DNA of 55,773 nucleotides from Thermoprotei archaeon (GTDB lineage: Archaea > Thermoproteota > Thermoprotei > QMSL01). The translations under genes and the position numbers were made by a program. Where the stretch lies: the NCBI GenBank assembly GCA_003650925.1, contig QMSP01000009.1:1-55773 (forward strand). The letters run 5' to 3'. Below are positions 12,315 to 16,214 of the stretch, piece by piece. Under the pieces are notes generated by a model that made no database searches, had not been told where the DNA came from, and saw only the letters and a program-made list of their open reading frames with translations. Position 1 is the first letter of the stretch, and every line of letters starts with the position of its first letter.

Positions 12315-12461
12315 TTACTCTGGCTCTATTACTACTATAACCTTGATCCTCCTCCCACGGTACTGTCTTAGCTTCTCCTGGTACTCCTTTGGTGGGTAGA
12401 TTACTATTCTGTCCTTCGTGTACTTAACCACAGATGCTTCAAATACATAAGTAATGCTCAT
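12315..12461 (-). CDS. Small AbrB-like protein paired with tnpB (copy 1)
   Basis: A 48-residue protein beginning MSITYVFEASVVKYTKD and containing IYPPKEYQEKL and an IKVIVVIE end strand. Strand, turn with PPKE, short helix and strand resemble half of a swapped-hairpin AbrB/SpoVT domain, where IPKEIREKL is the usual helix motif. A homologous 47-residue gene stands in the same divergent position beside the second tnpB. It therefore seems to belong to the tnpB module and is probably a DNA-binding regulator, comparable to transposon-associated small proteins such as DUF2080. The ATG at 12461 is chosen over the longer start at 12515 because the paralogue begins at the matching residue and an SD (GGTGGCT) precedes it. 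Confidence 0.65.
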   Translation of the reverse strand: MSITYVFEASVVKYTKDRIVIYPPKEYQEKLRQYRGRRIKVIVVIEPE

Positions 12462-12539
12462 ATCTAGCCACCATATGTATAAATAGCTAGAAAAACATAA
12501 ATGACTTTCTAGCATTAACTACTACATGGTGGCTGGGGG
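12462..12539. promoter_or_regulatory. Divergent promoter with inverted repeats, tnpB locus 1
   Basis: The 78-base interval carries AGCCACCAT (12466-12474) mirrored by ATGGTGGCT (12526-12534). Inside it GCTAGAAA (12486-12493) is mirrored by TTTCTAGC (12506-12513); both pairs centre near 12500. The outer arms include the SD sequences of the two divergent genes, each 5-6 bases from its start codon. The centre is A/T-rich and could serve as the TATA region in both directions. Confidence 0.5.
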
Positions 12540-12590
12540 ATGAGGGTTAGAGTAACCGCTAGGGTCAAGGCGGTTACTCCTAATCCCCAG
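12531..12590 (+). repeat. Nested inverted repeat over the start of tnpB copy 1
   Basis: A perfect 10-base inverted repeat, GAGTAACCGC (12550-12559) with GCGGTTACTC (12570-12579), lies within codons 4-14 of tnpB. An outer pair, GGCTGGGG at 12531-12538 with CCCCAGCC at about 12586-12593, brackets it, so an RNA hairpin would bury both SD and start codon. The second tnpB has an unrelated palindrome at the same place. Confidence 0.6.
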
Positions 12591-13760
12591 CCTATATTAT
12601 CTTTCCTGAAAGCCTACCGTGACTGGACACAGTACGTAGTAGACCAGATATGGGGCTTAGACCATATTCCTTCAATGAAAGAACTACACCGCAGGTTCTA
12701 CAAGTTATTAAGAAAGCAGGGATTTCGAGCACATCACTGCCATAAGATAGAGCGTAGGGCTAGAGAAGTTGTTAAAGCAACCAAGAAGAATAACGGAAGT
12801 AAACCAGTATTGAGAAAACTAACGGCTAGACTTGACTATCAAGATTACAAGCTAGACGTAAATAGTAAAACGTTGAGAATAGCTGTCCTCAATAATGAGT
12901 GGATTGAGCTAAAGCTACAATGGTATAGCTATCTAGATAAATACTTTAATGGTGAGTGGAAACTTAAGGAAATTCTCGTTAGCTACAGGGTTGACAATAT
13001 ATGGGTTTACTTCACGTTCGAGAAGGAGGTAGTGTTCAAACAGCCAAGAACTATTATGGGTATAGACATTAACTTCGATAATATAACTTACACCATAATT
13101 GATTTACGAGGCAACCTAGTAACTATGGGTGCCATACCGTTCAATGGGTTGAAGAGGGCATTAGCATATAAGGTAATTGTGGAGAAAATTCAGAGGAAAT
13201 ACTCTAGGAGATGGAGATATGTTAAAGGAATAAGGGAAGCTATTAGAAAACACAGTAGGAGAGCTAGGAATATTCTCTTGGACTCATGTCATTTCATTTC
13301 TAGGAAGGTAGCAGAGATAGCTAAGGAGTATAATGCTATGATAGTATTGGAAGACTTGAATAAGCTTAGAGAAAGAGTAAATGGTACTAAGAAGTTTAAC
13401 AAAAAGTTATCATTATGGACTTATCATAGAATACAGTCATACATTCATTACAAAGCACTAATTGAAGGACTGCCAATAACCTATGTGAGCCCAAGAAATA
13501 CATCCAAAACATCACCTTTAGGGGGAGAACTGAAGTTCATTAACTATAAGTGGATCATATTACCAAATGGACATGTTGTTACTAGGGATATTGTTGCCTC
13601 ATGGAACCTAGCATTAAGAGGGCTTAAACTCCTTACCCGAGATGTGGGGAGCTGTGGTTTCATGGACTCCCTGAATGCCCCTGACCAGATGCAAACCCAA
13701 GAAGGGATGAGGGAGAAGCCCGTGCAGGTATCCAAAATACTCATAGTTACCAAAAGATGA
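12540..13760 (+). CDS. tnpB: TnpB RNA-guided nuclease, zinc finger lost
   Basis: A 406-residue TnpB of the IS200/IS605 (IS1341-like) group. The RuvC acidic residues are all present: D176 in MGIDIN, E271 in VLEDLN and D350 in VTRDIVASWN. The region that is normally a CxxC...CxxC zinc ribbon instead reads TSPLGGEL...ILPNGHV, so all four cysteines are gone while the flanking residues remain; such forms are found in some crenarchaeal TnpB lineages. TnpB proteins are RNA-guided DNA nucleases using a guide RNA made from the element's right end. No tnpA transposase is nearby, so movement would need help in trans. A divergent small AbrB-like gene lies 78 bases upstream. Confidence 0.88.
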   Translation: MRVRVTARVKAVTPNPQPILSFLKAYRDWTQYVVDQIWGLDHIPSMKELHRRFYKLLRKQGFRAHHCHKIERRAREVVKATKKNNGSKPVLRKLTARLDYQDYKLDVNSKTLRIAVLNNEWIELKLQWYSYLDKYFNGEWKLKEILVSYRVDNIWVYFTFEKEVVFKQPRTIMGIDINFDNITYTIIDLRGNLVTMGAIPFNGLKRALAYKVIVEKIQRKYSRRWRYVKGIREAIRKHSRRARNILLDSCHFISRKVAEIAKEYNAMIVLEDLNKLRERVNGTKKFNKKLSLWTYHRIQSYIHYKALIEGLPITYVSPRNTSKTSPLGGELKFINYKWIILPNGHVVTRDIVASWNLALRGLKLLTRDVGSCGFMDSLNAPDQMQTQEGMREKPVQVSKILIVTKR

Positions 13761-14327: not shown

Positions 14328-14471
14328 TTAATCACTTTCCTTGATTACTATTACCTTTACTTTCTCTCCATGTAGCTTCTTCAACTTTTCCTGATATTCC
14401 TTTGGAGGATATATCAAGTACTTCTCACCAGTCTTAACAACCTTCGCCTCGAAGACGTATATAAACCCCAC
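14328..14471 (-). CDS. Small AbrB-like protein paired with tnpB (copy 2)
   Basis: A 47-residue protein with the segments GFIYVFEAKVVKTG, LIYPPKEYQEKL, KKLHGEKVKV and IVIKESD. It is clearly paralogous to the 12315-12461 product, sharing YVFEA, VVK, IYPPKEYQEKL and KVIV. The GTG start at 14471 follows an SD GGTGAAT on the minus strand. It lies 76 bases from the divergent tnpB start, against 78 in copy 1. The swapped-hairpin AbrB-like reading is an inference; the repeated association with tnpB is directly visible. Confidence 0.65.
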   Translation of the reverse strand: MGFIYVFEAKVVKTGEKYLIYPPKEYQEKLKKLHGEKVKVIVIKESD

Positions 14472-14547
14472 CTAAATTCACCGTTTATATTTTGAACACT
14501 AAAGCTTATAAATCTGTATACTGTTAACACTTATCGGTGAATACCCG
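14472..14547. promoter_or_regulatory. Divergent promoter with inverted repeats, tnpB locus 2
   Basis: ATTCACCG (14476-14483) is mirrored by CGGTGAAT (14535-14542), with arms 5 bases upstream of each start codon exactly as in locus 1 but with another sequence. A TTATAA palindrome at 14507-14512 lies at the exact centre (14509.5) and could be a shared bidirectional TATA box. The arms include the SDs of both genes. Confidence 0.5.
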
Positions 14548-15783
14548 ATGAGGGCGTCTATCACCCGAGCTAATCGGGTGATGCCCGAGGGAGTTTACTA
14601 TAGGACATTAAAAGCAAGAGCAGAGATTATTGAAGGAAATATTAATGATTTGCTGTGGGATTTAACGGTTTACAAGTATGCACTTCAGAAATGTATAGAA
14701 GCTTTATGGGAATTAGATAAAATCCCAAAGAAGAGCCAAGTGCATCAACTATTCTATCCGATGCTGAGGGATCATGGTTTTAGAGCACATGTAGCTAGGA
14801 ATATCTATTCAACAGCACTAGCCTTAGTGAAATCAGCTAAGGAAAATAATGGTTCTAAACCGGTTGTGAAGAAAATGACTGCTAGACTTGACTACCAAGA
14901 TGCTAAGGTAGACATGGATAGCCATGTTGTGAAAGTGATTCTTAGAGACAAGTGGTATACTCTGAAGATTATTCATAAGAAGGACTTCATCGAGAAGTTT
15001 AAGGGTTTGAAGTGGAAGGAGGTTCACGTAAAGTATTGCAATGGAGTATTATATGTCAGCATAATATTTGTGATTAGATACAAGCCATACGTTCCTAGAG
15101 GTGCTATAGGTTTAGATATCAATTTGAGGCAGATAACTACCTATGATGGTTCAAATGTTAGGAGATATAGGACAAGATTCATTGACGCATTGAGCAAAAG
15201 AGCTAGAGCTGAAGAATTACAGAGGAAGCATCCTAGAAGGTGGAGGTATAATAAAAGAATCCTGAGTAGAGTTAGAGCACTACATAGGAAGGCAAGGAAC
15301 ATCGTGCTTGATTGGTGTAGGAAGTCCGCTAAATACATAGTCCTTAAAGCTAAGAAGTATGGCTATGCAATTGCTTTAGAGGATTTAACAAACTTACGTG
15401 AAAACATTGTTGAGAAAGAGGGTGTTTTTGTTTGGAAGCTATCCATGTTTACCTACAGGAAACTTCAAGAAGCAATAATATCGAAAACCATCGAGCACAA
15501 CGTGCCCGTAATCCTCGTAAACCCAAGAAACACTTCAACTACATGCCCTAGATGCGGAACAAAATTATCTTACACCTATAGGTTGGCAATATGCAGGAAA
15601 TGCAATTTCAAAGCTGATAGGGATAAAATTGGTGCTATAAATATTTGGCTAAGGTCTCTTTATGTGTATGCGGGGGAGCATGGGTCTACCCTAAGTGCTC
15701 CCGCTGTGAAGGATGAAGCCCGACAGAGCGGGAGAATAAAGGATGAGGGGATGAAGATAATGATTAAAAGTGTTCAAAAGTAA
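14548..15783 (+). CDS. tnpB: TnpB RNA-guided nuclease with intact zinc finger
   Basis: A 411-residue TnpB. RuvC residues are D190 (IGLDIN), E278 (ALEDLT) and D359 (ADRDKIGAIN). The zinc ribbon is intact with C333, C336, C349 and C352 (TTCPRCG, ICRKCNF). It is only distantly related to the copy at 12540, so the two are separate element families and not a recent duplication. It is divergent from a small AbrB-like gene and has no tnpA partner. An internal ATG at 14581 is a possible alternative start. As a family it cuts DNA guided by an RNA from its own 3' end and promotes retention of the element. Confidence 0.9.
   Translation: MRASITRANRVMPEGVYYRTLKARAEIIEGNINDLLWDLTVYKYALQKCIEALWELDKIPKKSQVHQLFYPMLRDHGFRAHVARNIYSTALALVKSAKENNGSKPVVKKMTARLDYQDAKVDMDSHVVKVILRDKWYTLKIIHKKDFIEKFKGLKWKEVHVKYCNGVLYVSIIFVIRYKPYVPRGAIGLDINLRQITTYDGSNVRRYRTRFIDALSKRARAEELQRKHPRRWRYNKRILSRVRALHRKARNIVLDWCRKSAKYIVLKAKKYGYAIALEDLTNLRENIVEKEGVFVWKLSMFTYRKLQEAIISKTIEHNVPVILVNPRNTSTTCPRCGTKLSYTYRLAICRKCNFKADRDKIGAINIWLRSLYVYAGEHGSTLSAPAVKDEARQSGRIKDEGMKIMIKSVQK
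14560..14582 (+). repeat. Perfect hairpin inside the start of tnpB copy 2
   Basis: ATCACCCGA (14560-14568) and TCGGGTGAT (14574-14582) form a 9-base stem with a GCTAA loop at codons 5-12. Related CCCGA/TCGGG words at 14533-14549 and 14583-14590 allow alternative pairings, including one over the start codon (ATCGG 14533-14537 with CCGAT 14545-14549). This recalls an attenuator-like switch. Confidence 0.6.
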
Positions 15784-15795: not shown

Positions 15796-15809
15796 TTTAG
15801 ACCTGAACC

Positions 15810-16214
15810 CTACTTGAGCTCCTTGCTGAGATTGAAAGGCTTTCCCTCCTTAAGCACTTTCCCAGGTATTTTATCCTTATACTTTCTCAGGAAGGATAGA
15901 TCCTCCTCCTCATCCCTGAGCTCGTCAGGAAGCATCCTTGGTATCTCCTCCTCAATTGGATACCATCGCTTACACCTAGGGCATATCAATATGCCTGCGT
16001 CAACCTCTCGCTTGAAGCACTCCTCACACTTTATGTCCTCCCTTCCCAGCTCTTTGGTATACTTGGCTAGGAAACCACAGTACAGCTCACAGACAGGCCT
16101 TTTATCAGTTGGAGGCTCTCTTTTCTCATATCTATTCTCCTTGAACACCTTCAGTGTGAGAGGAAAATGTTTACACATGGGGCAGGCTAGGAGGTCTAGT
16201 AGCCTGTACTTCAT
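15810..16214 (-). CDS. Trm112 family zinc-binding protein
   Basis: A 134-residue Trm112-like protein. It starts MKYRLLDLLACPMCKHFPL, the classic LLxxLxCPxC opening, and has the second zinc pair in LICPRCKRWYPIEEEIPRMLP. Additional cysteines (CELYCGF, CEECF) sit in the insert. In archaea and eukaryotes Trm112 is an activating subunit for several methyltransferases acting on tRNA, rRNA and release factors. The ATG follows AGGGGAG. It is transcribed toward the tnpB locus. Candidate partner methyltransferases in this window lie at 49794 and 50528, but any pairing is speculative. Confidence 0.88.
   Translation of the reverse strand: MKYRLLDLLACPMCKHFPLTLKVFKENRYEKREPPTDKRPVCELYCGFLAKYTKELGREDIKCEECFKREVDAGILICPRCKRWYPIEEEIPRMLPDELRDEEEDLSFLRKYKDKIPGKVLKEGKPFNLSKELK

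Follow-up and report, generated by a model that had tools for sequence, protein, structure and literature searches.

The start codon of tnpB, the nuclease gene of RNA-guided transposons, lies within a hairpin whose sequence matches the rules for a kink-turn, an RNA shape to which the host's L7Ae protein binds. That the beginning of tnpB is occupied by a structured RNA of the sense strand is virtually certain from the pairing, strand, and coding evidence below, and it is likely that this RNA contains a kink-turn in the main subfamilies.

Two tnpB modules and their start hairpins

The window, that is, the whole 55,773-nucleotide stretch of DNA that was analyzed (contig C9), comes from a genome that stands alone in its family among the genomes compared. 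Relatives were searched in Thermoproteota (taxonomy inferred). The window contains two tnpB modules (12.3-13.8 kb and 14.3-15.8 kb), both accompanied by a small ORF that runs divergently, and tnpB copies or fragments number about a dozen in the host genome. Both products contain the Cas12f1-like_TNB domain (39 bits in locus 1 and 62.5 bits in locus 2 vs a cut-off of 26.3). L7Ae is encoded in the same genome (G000:C5, 111 bits). An Rfam scan of the window returned no relevant family, viral contigs gave no match, and plasmids and phages yielded TnpBs of about 32% identity, nothing closer.

A repeat search recovered, exactly in place, all four inverted repeats that the initial annotation had reported at the two tnpB starts. 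These four repeats resolve into different things: two belong to hairpins inside tnpB, and two are matches between Shine-Dalgarno sequences, with a dyad that flanks the TATA box being separate from both. The tnpB-internal repeats (GAGTAACCGC 12550-12559/GCGGTTACTC 12570-12579 in locus 1 and ATCACCCGA 14560-14568/TCGGGTGAT 14574-14582 in locus 2) are beyond chance (RNA fold z -2.6 and -4.9). Folding places them at the inner end of longer hairpins not covered by the initial annotation, with an outer stem in locus 1 and with stems and G-A pairs at about 14544-14591 in locus 2, and the AUG falls in an asymmetric bulge. The genes and hairpins are as follows:

12540..13760, + strand: tnpB of locus 1, 406 aa (translation; Pfam Cas12f1-like_TNB, 39 bits)
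12531..12592, + strand: locus 1 hairpin (folding, repeat search; codon-shuffle z about -2.2, -2.15)
12531-12538/12585-12592, + strand: locus 1 outer stem, GGCTGGGG (as stem: GGCUGGGG)/CCCCAGCC
12540-12542, + strand: locus 1 AUG, within the one-sided bulge GAUGAGG
12550-12559/12570-12579, + strand: locus 1 upper stem, GAGUAACCGC/GCGGUUACUC
14548..15783, + strand: tnpB of locus 2, 411 aa (Pfam Cas12f1-like_TNB, 62.5 bits)
14544..14591, + strand: locus 2 kink-turn hairpin (folding; covariance-model match 14539-14594, E 7e-14; codon shuffles)
14544-14546/14589-14591, + strand: locus 2 C-stem, CCC/GGG
14547-14549, + strand: locus 2 3-nt loop, GAU
14548-14550, + strand: locus 2 AUG, covering the loop and the first G-A pair
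14550-14551/14587-14588, + strand: locus 2 tandem G-A, GA with GA
14552-14555/14583-14586, + strand: locus 2 NC-stem, GGGC/GCCC
14556-14559, + strand: locus 2 bulge, GUCU
14560-14568/14574-14582, + strand: locus 2 upper stem, AUCACCCGA/UCGGGUGAU
15799..15810, + strand: probable right end of element 2, AGACCTGAACCC, matching the mini-element right end CAGACCCGAACCC (identity boundary of 13 mini-elements)

The locus 1 TnpB is without the Zn-ribbon cysteines, with TSKTSPLGGEL at the place of TCPRCG in locus 2. It retains the D/E/D motif regions, and its Pfam score is far below that of locus 2; judging from the sequence, this protein is possibly repurposed or decaying.

A hairpin family across Thermoproteota

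The tnpB copies of the host and related genomes share the design of the hairpin with changed letters, the arms including ATCACCC/GGGTGAT, ATCCGCC/GGCGGAT, ATCCACC/GGTGGAT, ATCTCCC/GGGAGAT, ACCACC/GGTGGT, and ACAACC/GGTTGT. A covariance model built from 16 copies and run on 398 genomes of the phylum produced 41 matches, and the strong ones outside the training set lay at a tnpB AUG, a tnpB remnant, or a mini-element. A second model, run on 229 genomes from another class of the phylum, produced many more, with 27 of the 229 genomes positive. Nearly all matches at E<=1e-5 are at tnpB starts or in omegaRNA mini-elements. Altogether, 99 sites (95 distinct rows) were aligned, comprising tnpB start codons and about 30 TnpB-less mini-elements. 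The matches L022 (Desulfurococcales MAG AUK150) and L124 (genome G463) are identical and apparently represent one locus; L128 and L156, from one genome, have identical hairpins.

Several hairpin-bearing tnpB genes (L010/L086 on G000:C3 and L043/L073 on G055:C3) lie directly 3' of an apparent IS607-type recombinase C-terminus and have no small ORF. In other copies, the small ORF seems to replace the recombinase.

Covariation, strand, and coding tests

Pairing is maintained in 88% of alignment A1, 92% of alignment A2, and 90% of the cells of alignment A4 (99 matches). Covariation reached 0.391 in A2 and 0.386 in A4 vs at most 0.10 and 0.12, respectively, with slid partners, and double changes occupied 152 cells of A4 vs 48.6 after shuffling. 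Copies within one genome are not independent. In a tree-aware null, the substitutions of each tree branch were redistributed among 39 structure-aligned copies (1000 nulls). Single-branch double compensations numbered 17 vs 2.4±1.5 expected and covariation was 0.541 vs 0.153, neither value being attained in any of the 1000 nulls, in an alignment where nine rows had been shifted one base in the upper stem for better pairing, an adjustment that favors the structure. The unadjusted pair counts from A1, A2, and A4 agree in direction with this test. The conservation of paired arms in orthologous loci, proposed earlier as a check, thus holds for the tnpB hairpin; the Shine-Dalgarno arms fail it.

Deviations from Watson-Crick pairing comprise 129 G-U vs 17 A-C, which indicates that the hairpin is an RNA of the tnpB-sense strand. 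Synonymous-codon shuffles gave z = -4.8 for locus 2 and z < -1.8 for 24 of 25 tnpB starts (mean -2.9), compared with a mean of -0.16 for 54 control windows further into genes. These shuffles, together with the two reading phases of the GA described below, rule out protein-coding constraint as the cause of the hairpin.

Kink-turn signature

The locus 2 hairpin reads CCC-GAU-GA-GGGC…GCCC-GA-GGG, the sequence pattern of a kink-turn. The same order of helices runs through the family: a C-stem, a loop of 3 nt (mostly GAU or AAU), a GA in each strand, and an NC-stem. The kink-turn overlaps the start region of tnpB, with the AUG inside, the Shine-Dalgarno sequence a few nucleotides upstream, and L7Ae encoded by the host. 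The tandem G-A is intact in 43 of 45 coding copies vs 21 of 30 mini-elements (Fisher p=0.005; copies not independent). In one subfamily, the n-strand GA belongs to the Glu codon GAG in phase 0 (25 of 26 genes); in the other, it belongs to the Arg codon CGA in phase 1 (22 of 22 genes), which accounts for only 2.6% of the Arg codons in those same genes. The maintenance of GA in two reading phases, along with the use of a rare codon, argues that the RNA motif, not the amino acid, is conserved. A mini-element from G350 has a wholly different, complementary C-stem (UUGGUC/GACCAG) and no AUG, with the G-A pairs retained.

Locus 1 departs from this pattern: its n-strand reads AAU, with no GA, and the G-A signature of the kink-turn is absent. 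Its paralogue on contig C3 retains the hairpin. The locus 1 hairpin has probably diverged such that a canonical kink-turn is no longer formed.

TnpB-less mini-elements

About 30 mini-elements without TnpB keep both the hairpin and the omegaRNA end, and the hairpin is retained in mini-elements of at least five genomes. Among them are 13 copies in G527 that have sharp common ends and share a layout of left end, TATA box, hairpin, omegaRNA-like core, and right end CAGACCCGAACCC; further mini-elements are found in G218 and G173. Having common ends, no transposase or tnpB gene, and several dispersed copies, these elements qualify as MITEs. Pairwise differences per site among the 13 copies are lowest in the hairpin (0.061), followed by the omegaRNA core (0.093) and right end (0.101), whereas the left end (0.163), linker (0.241), and 5' spacer (0.324) are less conserved. 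In the G527 elements, broken reading frames and the occasional loss of the AUG show that the hairpin is kept for a non-coding reason. Since it survives without a nuclease gene, it probably controls the transposon RNA along with the timing of nuclease synthesis. Nevertheless, 9 of the 30 mini-elements have lost the G-A pairs and kept the hairpin, so its role is not strictly tied to the kink-turn.

In several mini-elements (L096-L099, L138-L164), the second GA has become AA and the stems are kept; with no start codon left to control, the kink-turn may be in decay there. A match to HgcC (RF00062; 1357-1490, - strand) lies immediately 3' of the hairpin in the G173 mini-element L083 and scores 37.7 bits, below the gathering score of 50. 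HgcC RNAs have been linked to transposase genes in Thermococcus (PMC4247193).

Six other elements (G000:C8:9500, denoted L020, and L059, L063, L064, L065, and L057) consist of a divergent small AbrB-like ORF and a non-coding stretch of about 200 nt, with no tnpB. Where legible, they carry a terminal motif of the GATGAARCCC/AACCC type, as do the tnpB elements. The L020-type elements are possibly composed of a regulator and a guide RNA only.

Comparison with known systems

Regulation of mRNAs by kink-turns and the existence of tnpB-derived MITEs are already known. A search of papers available without subscription found no kink-turn or L7Ae reported at tnpB starts.

A close counterpart is the l7ae leader of S. 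acidocaldarius, where a 5' kink-turn with a GAU loop, beside the Shine-Dalgarno sequence, lets L7Ae repress the translation of its own message (PMC5539422). Both are start-region kink-turns with a GAU 3-nt loop, two G-A pairs, a 4-bp NC stem, an adjoining Shine-Dalgarno sequence, and L7Ae in the host (PMC5539422; PMC6298567). In tnpB, by contrast, the AUG is inside the kink-turn, the element is mostly coding, and the gene is that of a transposon nuclease. The l7ae leader takes on structure only once L7Ae is bound (PMC6298567), whereas the tnpB element has an additional long hairpin predicted to be stable alone. S. acidocaldarius L7Ae also binds kink-turns in coding regions (PMC5539422). The mRNAs of saci_1468, saci_2027, saci_1347, and nop5, recovered by L7Ae RIP-Seq, have L7Ae-type kink-turns at their starts or within coding sequence, some of which were tested in a position directly 3' of a start codon; the main text of that study names no transposase or tnpB (PMC5539422).

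Among transposon-related RNAs, sRkB and sRkC of P. abyssi are repeated, promoter-driven non-coding RNAs of about 215 nt that are related to the 3' end of OrfB/TnpB and contain two kink-turns shown to bind L7Ae (PMC3124441). These RNAs differ in being euryarchaeal and in that no tnpB 5' end is described for them (PMC3124441). MITEs of Staphylothermus marinus are repeats of about 260 bp related to the region upstream of an IS607-type tnpB (PMC2678158); the portion of that report considered here treats them as DNA repeats only and discusses no RNA structure, kink-turn, or omegaRNA. The omegaRNA/reRNA (HgcC, RF00062; RAGATH-18, PMC11061315) is part of the same transcript as the tnpB hairpin but is located at the 3' end of tnpB, the hairpin being a separate 5' element. 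RAGATH-18 also contains a possible kink-turn (PMC11061315).

Proposed role of the hairpin and alternative explanations

The TATA box lies about 40 nt 5' of the AUG (median of 19 loci), which, given the usual archaeal TATA-to-start distance, would place the beginning of the hairpin near the 5' end of the RNA. There, the AUG would be surrounded by a short first stem, the GAU loop of 3 nt, two G-A pairs, and another stem, the start codon itself contributing the final two loop bases as well as the first G among the G-A pairs. Host L7Ae would bind this kink-turn as it binds that of the l7ae mRNA, hiding the Shine-Dalgarno sequence and the AUG and thereby limiting TnpB synthesis. The bound protein could also protect or mark the 5' end of an RNA whose 3' end is the guide RNA. 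On balance, we lean toward this reading, namely, that the kink-turn-based hairpin serves as the structured 5' part of the tnpB/omegaRNA transcript, bound by L7Ae and gating TnpB translation. Its parts differ in strength. L7Ae is a reasonably probable ligand in view of the l7ae leader precedent, the L7Ae-bound non-coding RNAs of P. abyssi, and the presence of an L7Ae gene in the host. The effect on tnpB translation is proposed tentatively, as is 5'-end protection of the transcript. Of the earlier suggestion that RNA hairpins control tnpB translation, the hairpin itself is borne out by covariation, codon choice, sense-strand deviations, and the AUG inside it, and control is the inferred part. 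Possible but doubtful is an extended scheme in which L7Ae recruited to the AUG commits each RNA either to translation or to retention as a guide-RNA RNP, with mini-elements keeping the kink-turn to enter the same RNP pathway.

The tnpB hairpin is predicted to be stable alone, unlike the l7ae leader, so it might block initiation without L7Ae. This bears on an unlikely alternative, in which a plain thermostable stem limits initiation or stabilizes the RNA 5' end in hyperthermophiles with no dedicated protein; the loss of G-A pairs from 9 of 30 stem-keeping mini-elements is compatible with it. Such a stem leaves unexplained both the 43/45 conservation of the G-A pairs in coding copies and the invariable use of the rare CGA.

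TnpB or another protein could also be the ligand. We consider it rather unlikely that TnpB, alone or with omegaRNA, binds the hairpin as an omegaRNA mimic, for autoregulation or guide-RNA excision without L7Ae. At the same loci, words of the GATGAGGGG type are shared by the 5' hairpin and the region close to the 3' end of the omegaRNA, the hairpin is conserved like the omegaRNA core in mini-elements that need TnpB in trans, and TnpB reportedly processes its own mRNA into omegaRNA (PubMed id 37272862, as cited in PMC12817955). However, a specific kink-turn consensus would not be needed for such binding, and the 5' hairpin could not be shown to be homologous to the omegaRNA stems in sequence or structure.

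A cis-acting DNA hairpin used in transposition, either as the single-stranded end recognized by a Y1 transposase or as a recombinase site, and kept for mini-element mobility, is improbable. Hairpins at the ends are typical of IS200/IS605 transposons, and retention in mini-elements of several genomes would fit, but the tnpB hairpin is internal: in the 13 aligned mini-elements, the left end lies upstream of it, across about 100 bp that include the TATA box. This boundary mapping disfavors the hairpin as the transposon left end. Moreover, the ends of the G173 mini-elements carry hairpins distinct from this one, which is itself found behind IS607-type recombinase genes as well as in stand-alone elements; its loop contains the AUG, and G-U deviations far outnumber A-C.

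It is very improbable that the hairpin arms form a palindrome in double-stranded DNA that serves as operator for the divergent small protein. The small ORF adjoins many hairpin loci, but the hairpin is equally present without it, and this, together with the sense-strand G-U bias, rules the operator out; the internal loops are also asymmetric, and the TATA-flanking dyad is a better operator candidate. A chance or codon-bias artifact deserves practically no credence, for although Shine-Dalgarno sequences and GC content do create short complements, as in the promoter arms, the codon shuffles, tree-aware null, A4 covariation, and G-U bias refute this origin for the hairpin.

For the question of how the TnpB nuclease is kept low and balanced against its guide RNA, a start-codon kink-turn would offer a concrete, testable control point in archaea, one that links RNA-guided transposons to the L7Ae/C-D box RNPs of the host. 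Such a kink-turn may also account for the L7Ae-bound, transposase-related non-coding RNAs described previously. The retention of the hairpin in mini-elements shows that the 5' end of the RNA matters beyond encoding TnpB. If the extended scheme is correct, a widespread group of TnpB transposons in archaea, together with their TnpB-less mini-elements, would carry in the transcript a built-in switch operated by a host protein.

The divergent promoter and the small protein

The following features belong to the region between tnpB and the small ORF:

12315..12461, - strand: divergent small protein of locus 1, about 48 aa, weak AbrB/MazE-like pattern
12466..12534, no strand assigned: Shine-Dalgarno-type arms of locus 1, AGCCACCAT 12466-12474 (small-ORF side)/ATGGTGGCT 12526-12534 (tnpB side)
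12486..12513, no strand assigned: TATA-flanking dyad of locus 1, candidate operator, GCTAGAAA 12486-12493/TTTCTAGC 12506-12513
14328..14471, - strand: divergent small protein of locus 2, 47 aa, same family as that of locus 1
14476..14542, no strand assigned: Shine-Dalgarno-type arms of locus 2, ATTCACCG 14476-14483/CGGTGAAT 14535-14542
14494..14521, no strand assigned: equivalent of the dyad in locus 2, GAACAC 14494-14499/GTATAC 14516-14521 around CTTATAAA 14505-14512

The promoter-flanking arms, which are the Shine-Dalgarno sequences of tnpB and of the small ORF, are not conserved as pairs. At 19 divergent loci, the longest complement between the two Shine-Dalgarno zones averaged 5.2 within loci vs 5.1 between loci (permutation p=0.32), which rules out a co-evolving dyad. 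Long arm matches were seen only in the two window loci (9 and 8) and in one relative (7). Here, chance complementarity is accepted, given that Shine-Dalgarno sequences and GC content yield short complements. The initial annotation had offered co-evolution with a cognate regulator as one possible cause of these arms, and for them it is not supported. Its observation that arms match within a locus and not between loci applies to the tnpB hairpins and, again, not to the Shine-Dalgarno arms; it is true also of the TATA-flanking dyad, which had not been included.

The small protein matches no Pfam family at the cut-off (MazE_antitoxin at E 0.089 in 1 of 19 sequences), and the best Foldseek matches include VapB/MazE/RIFT folds, all at E>2. 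Searches of Pfam, NCBIfam, and PDB sequences and folds thus gave weak AbrB-type hints, no more.

At the divergent promoter, it is the dyad flanking the TATA box for which co-evolution with a cognate regulator is supported. The mean match was 5.04 within loci vs 3.79 between loci (0 of 20,000 permutations), and a score of at least 6 was found at 13 of 29 loci with the small ORF vs 4 of 48 without it (p=0.007). From its sequence and placement, the dyad is a candidate operator of the divergent small AbrB-like protein, which probably represses both genes via the locus-specific dyad at their shared TATA region. In locus 2, the dyad is weak, with 4 of 6 positions complementary (score 4, alone not significant). 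Dyads elsewhere include GAGTAC/GTACTC in G054b, ATAGCTA/TAGCTAT in G389a, and GAGCAAAA/TTTTGCTC in L065.
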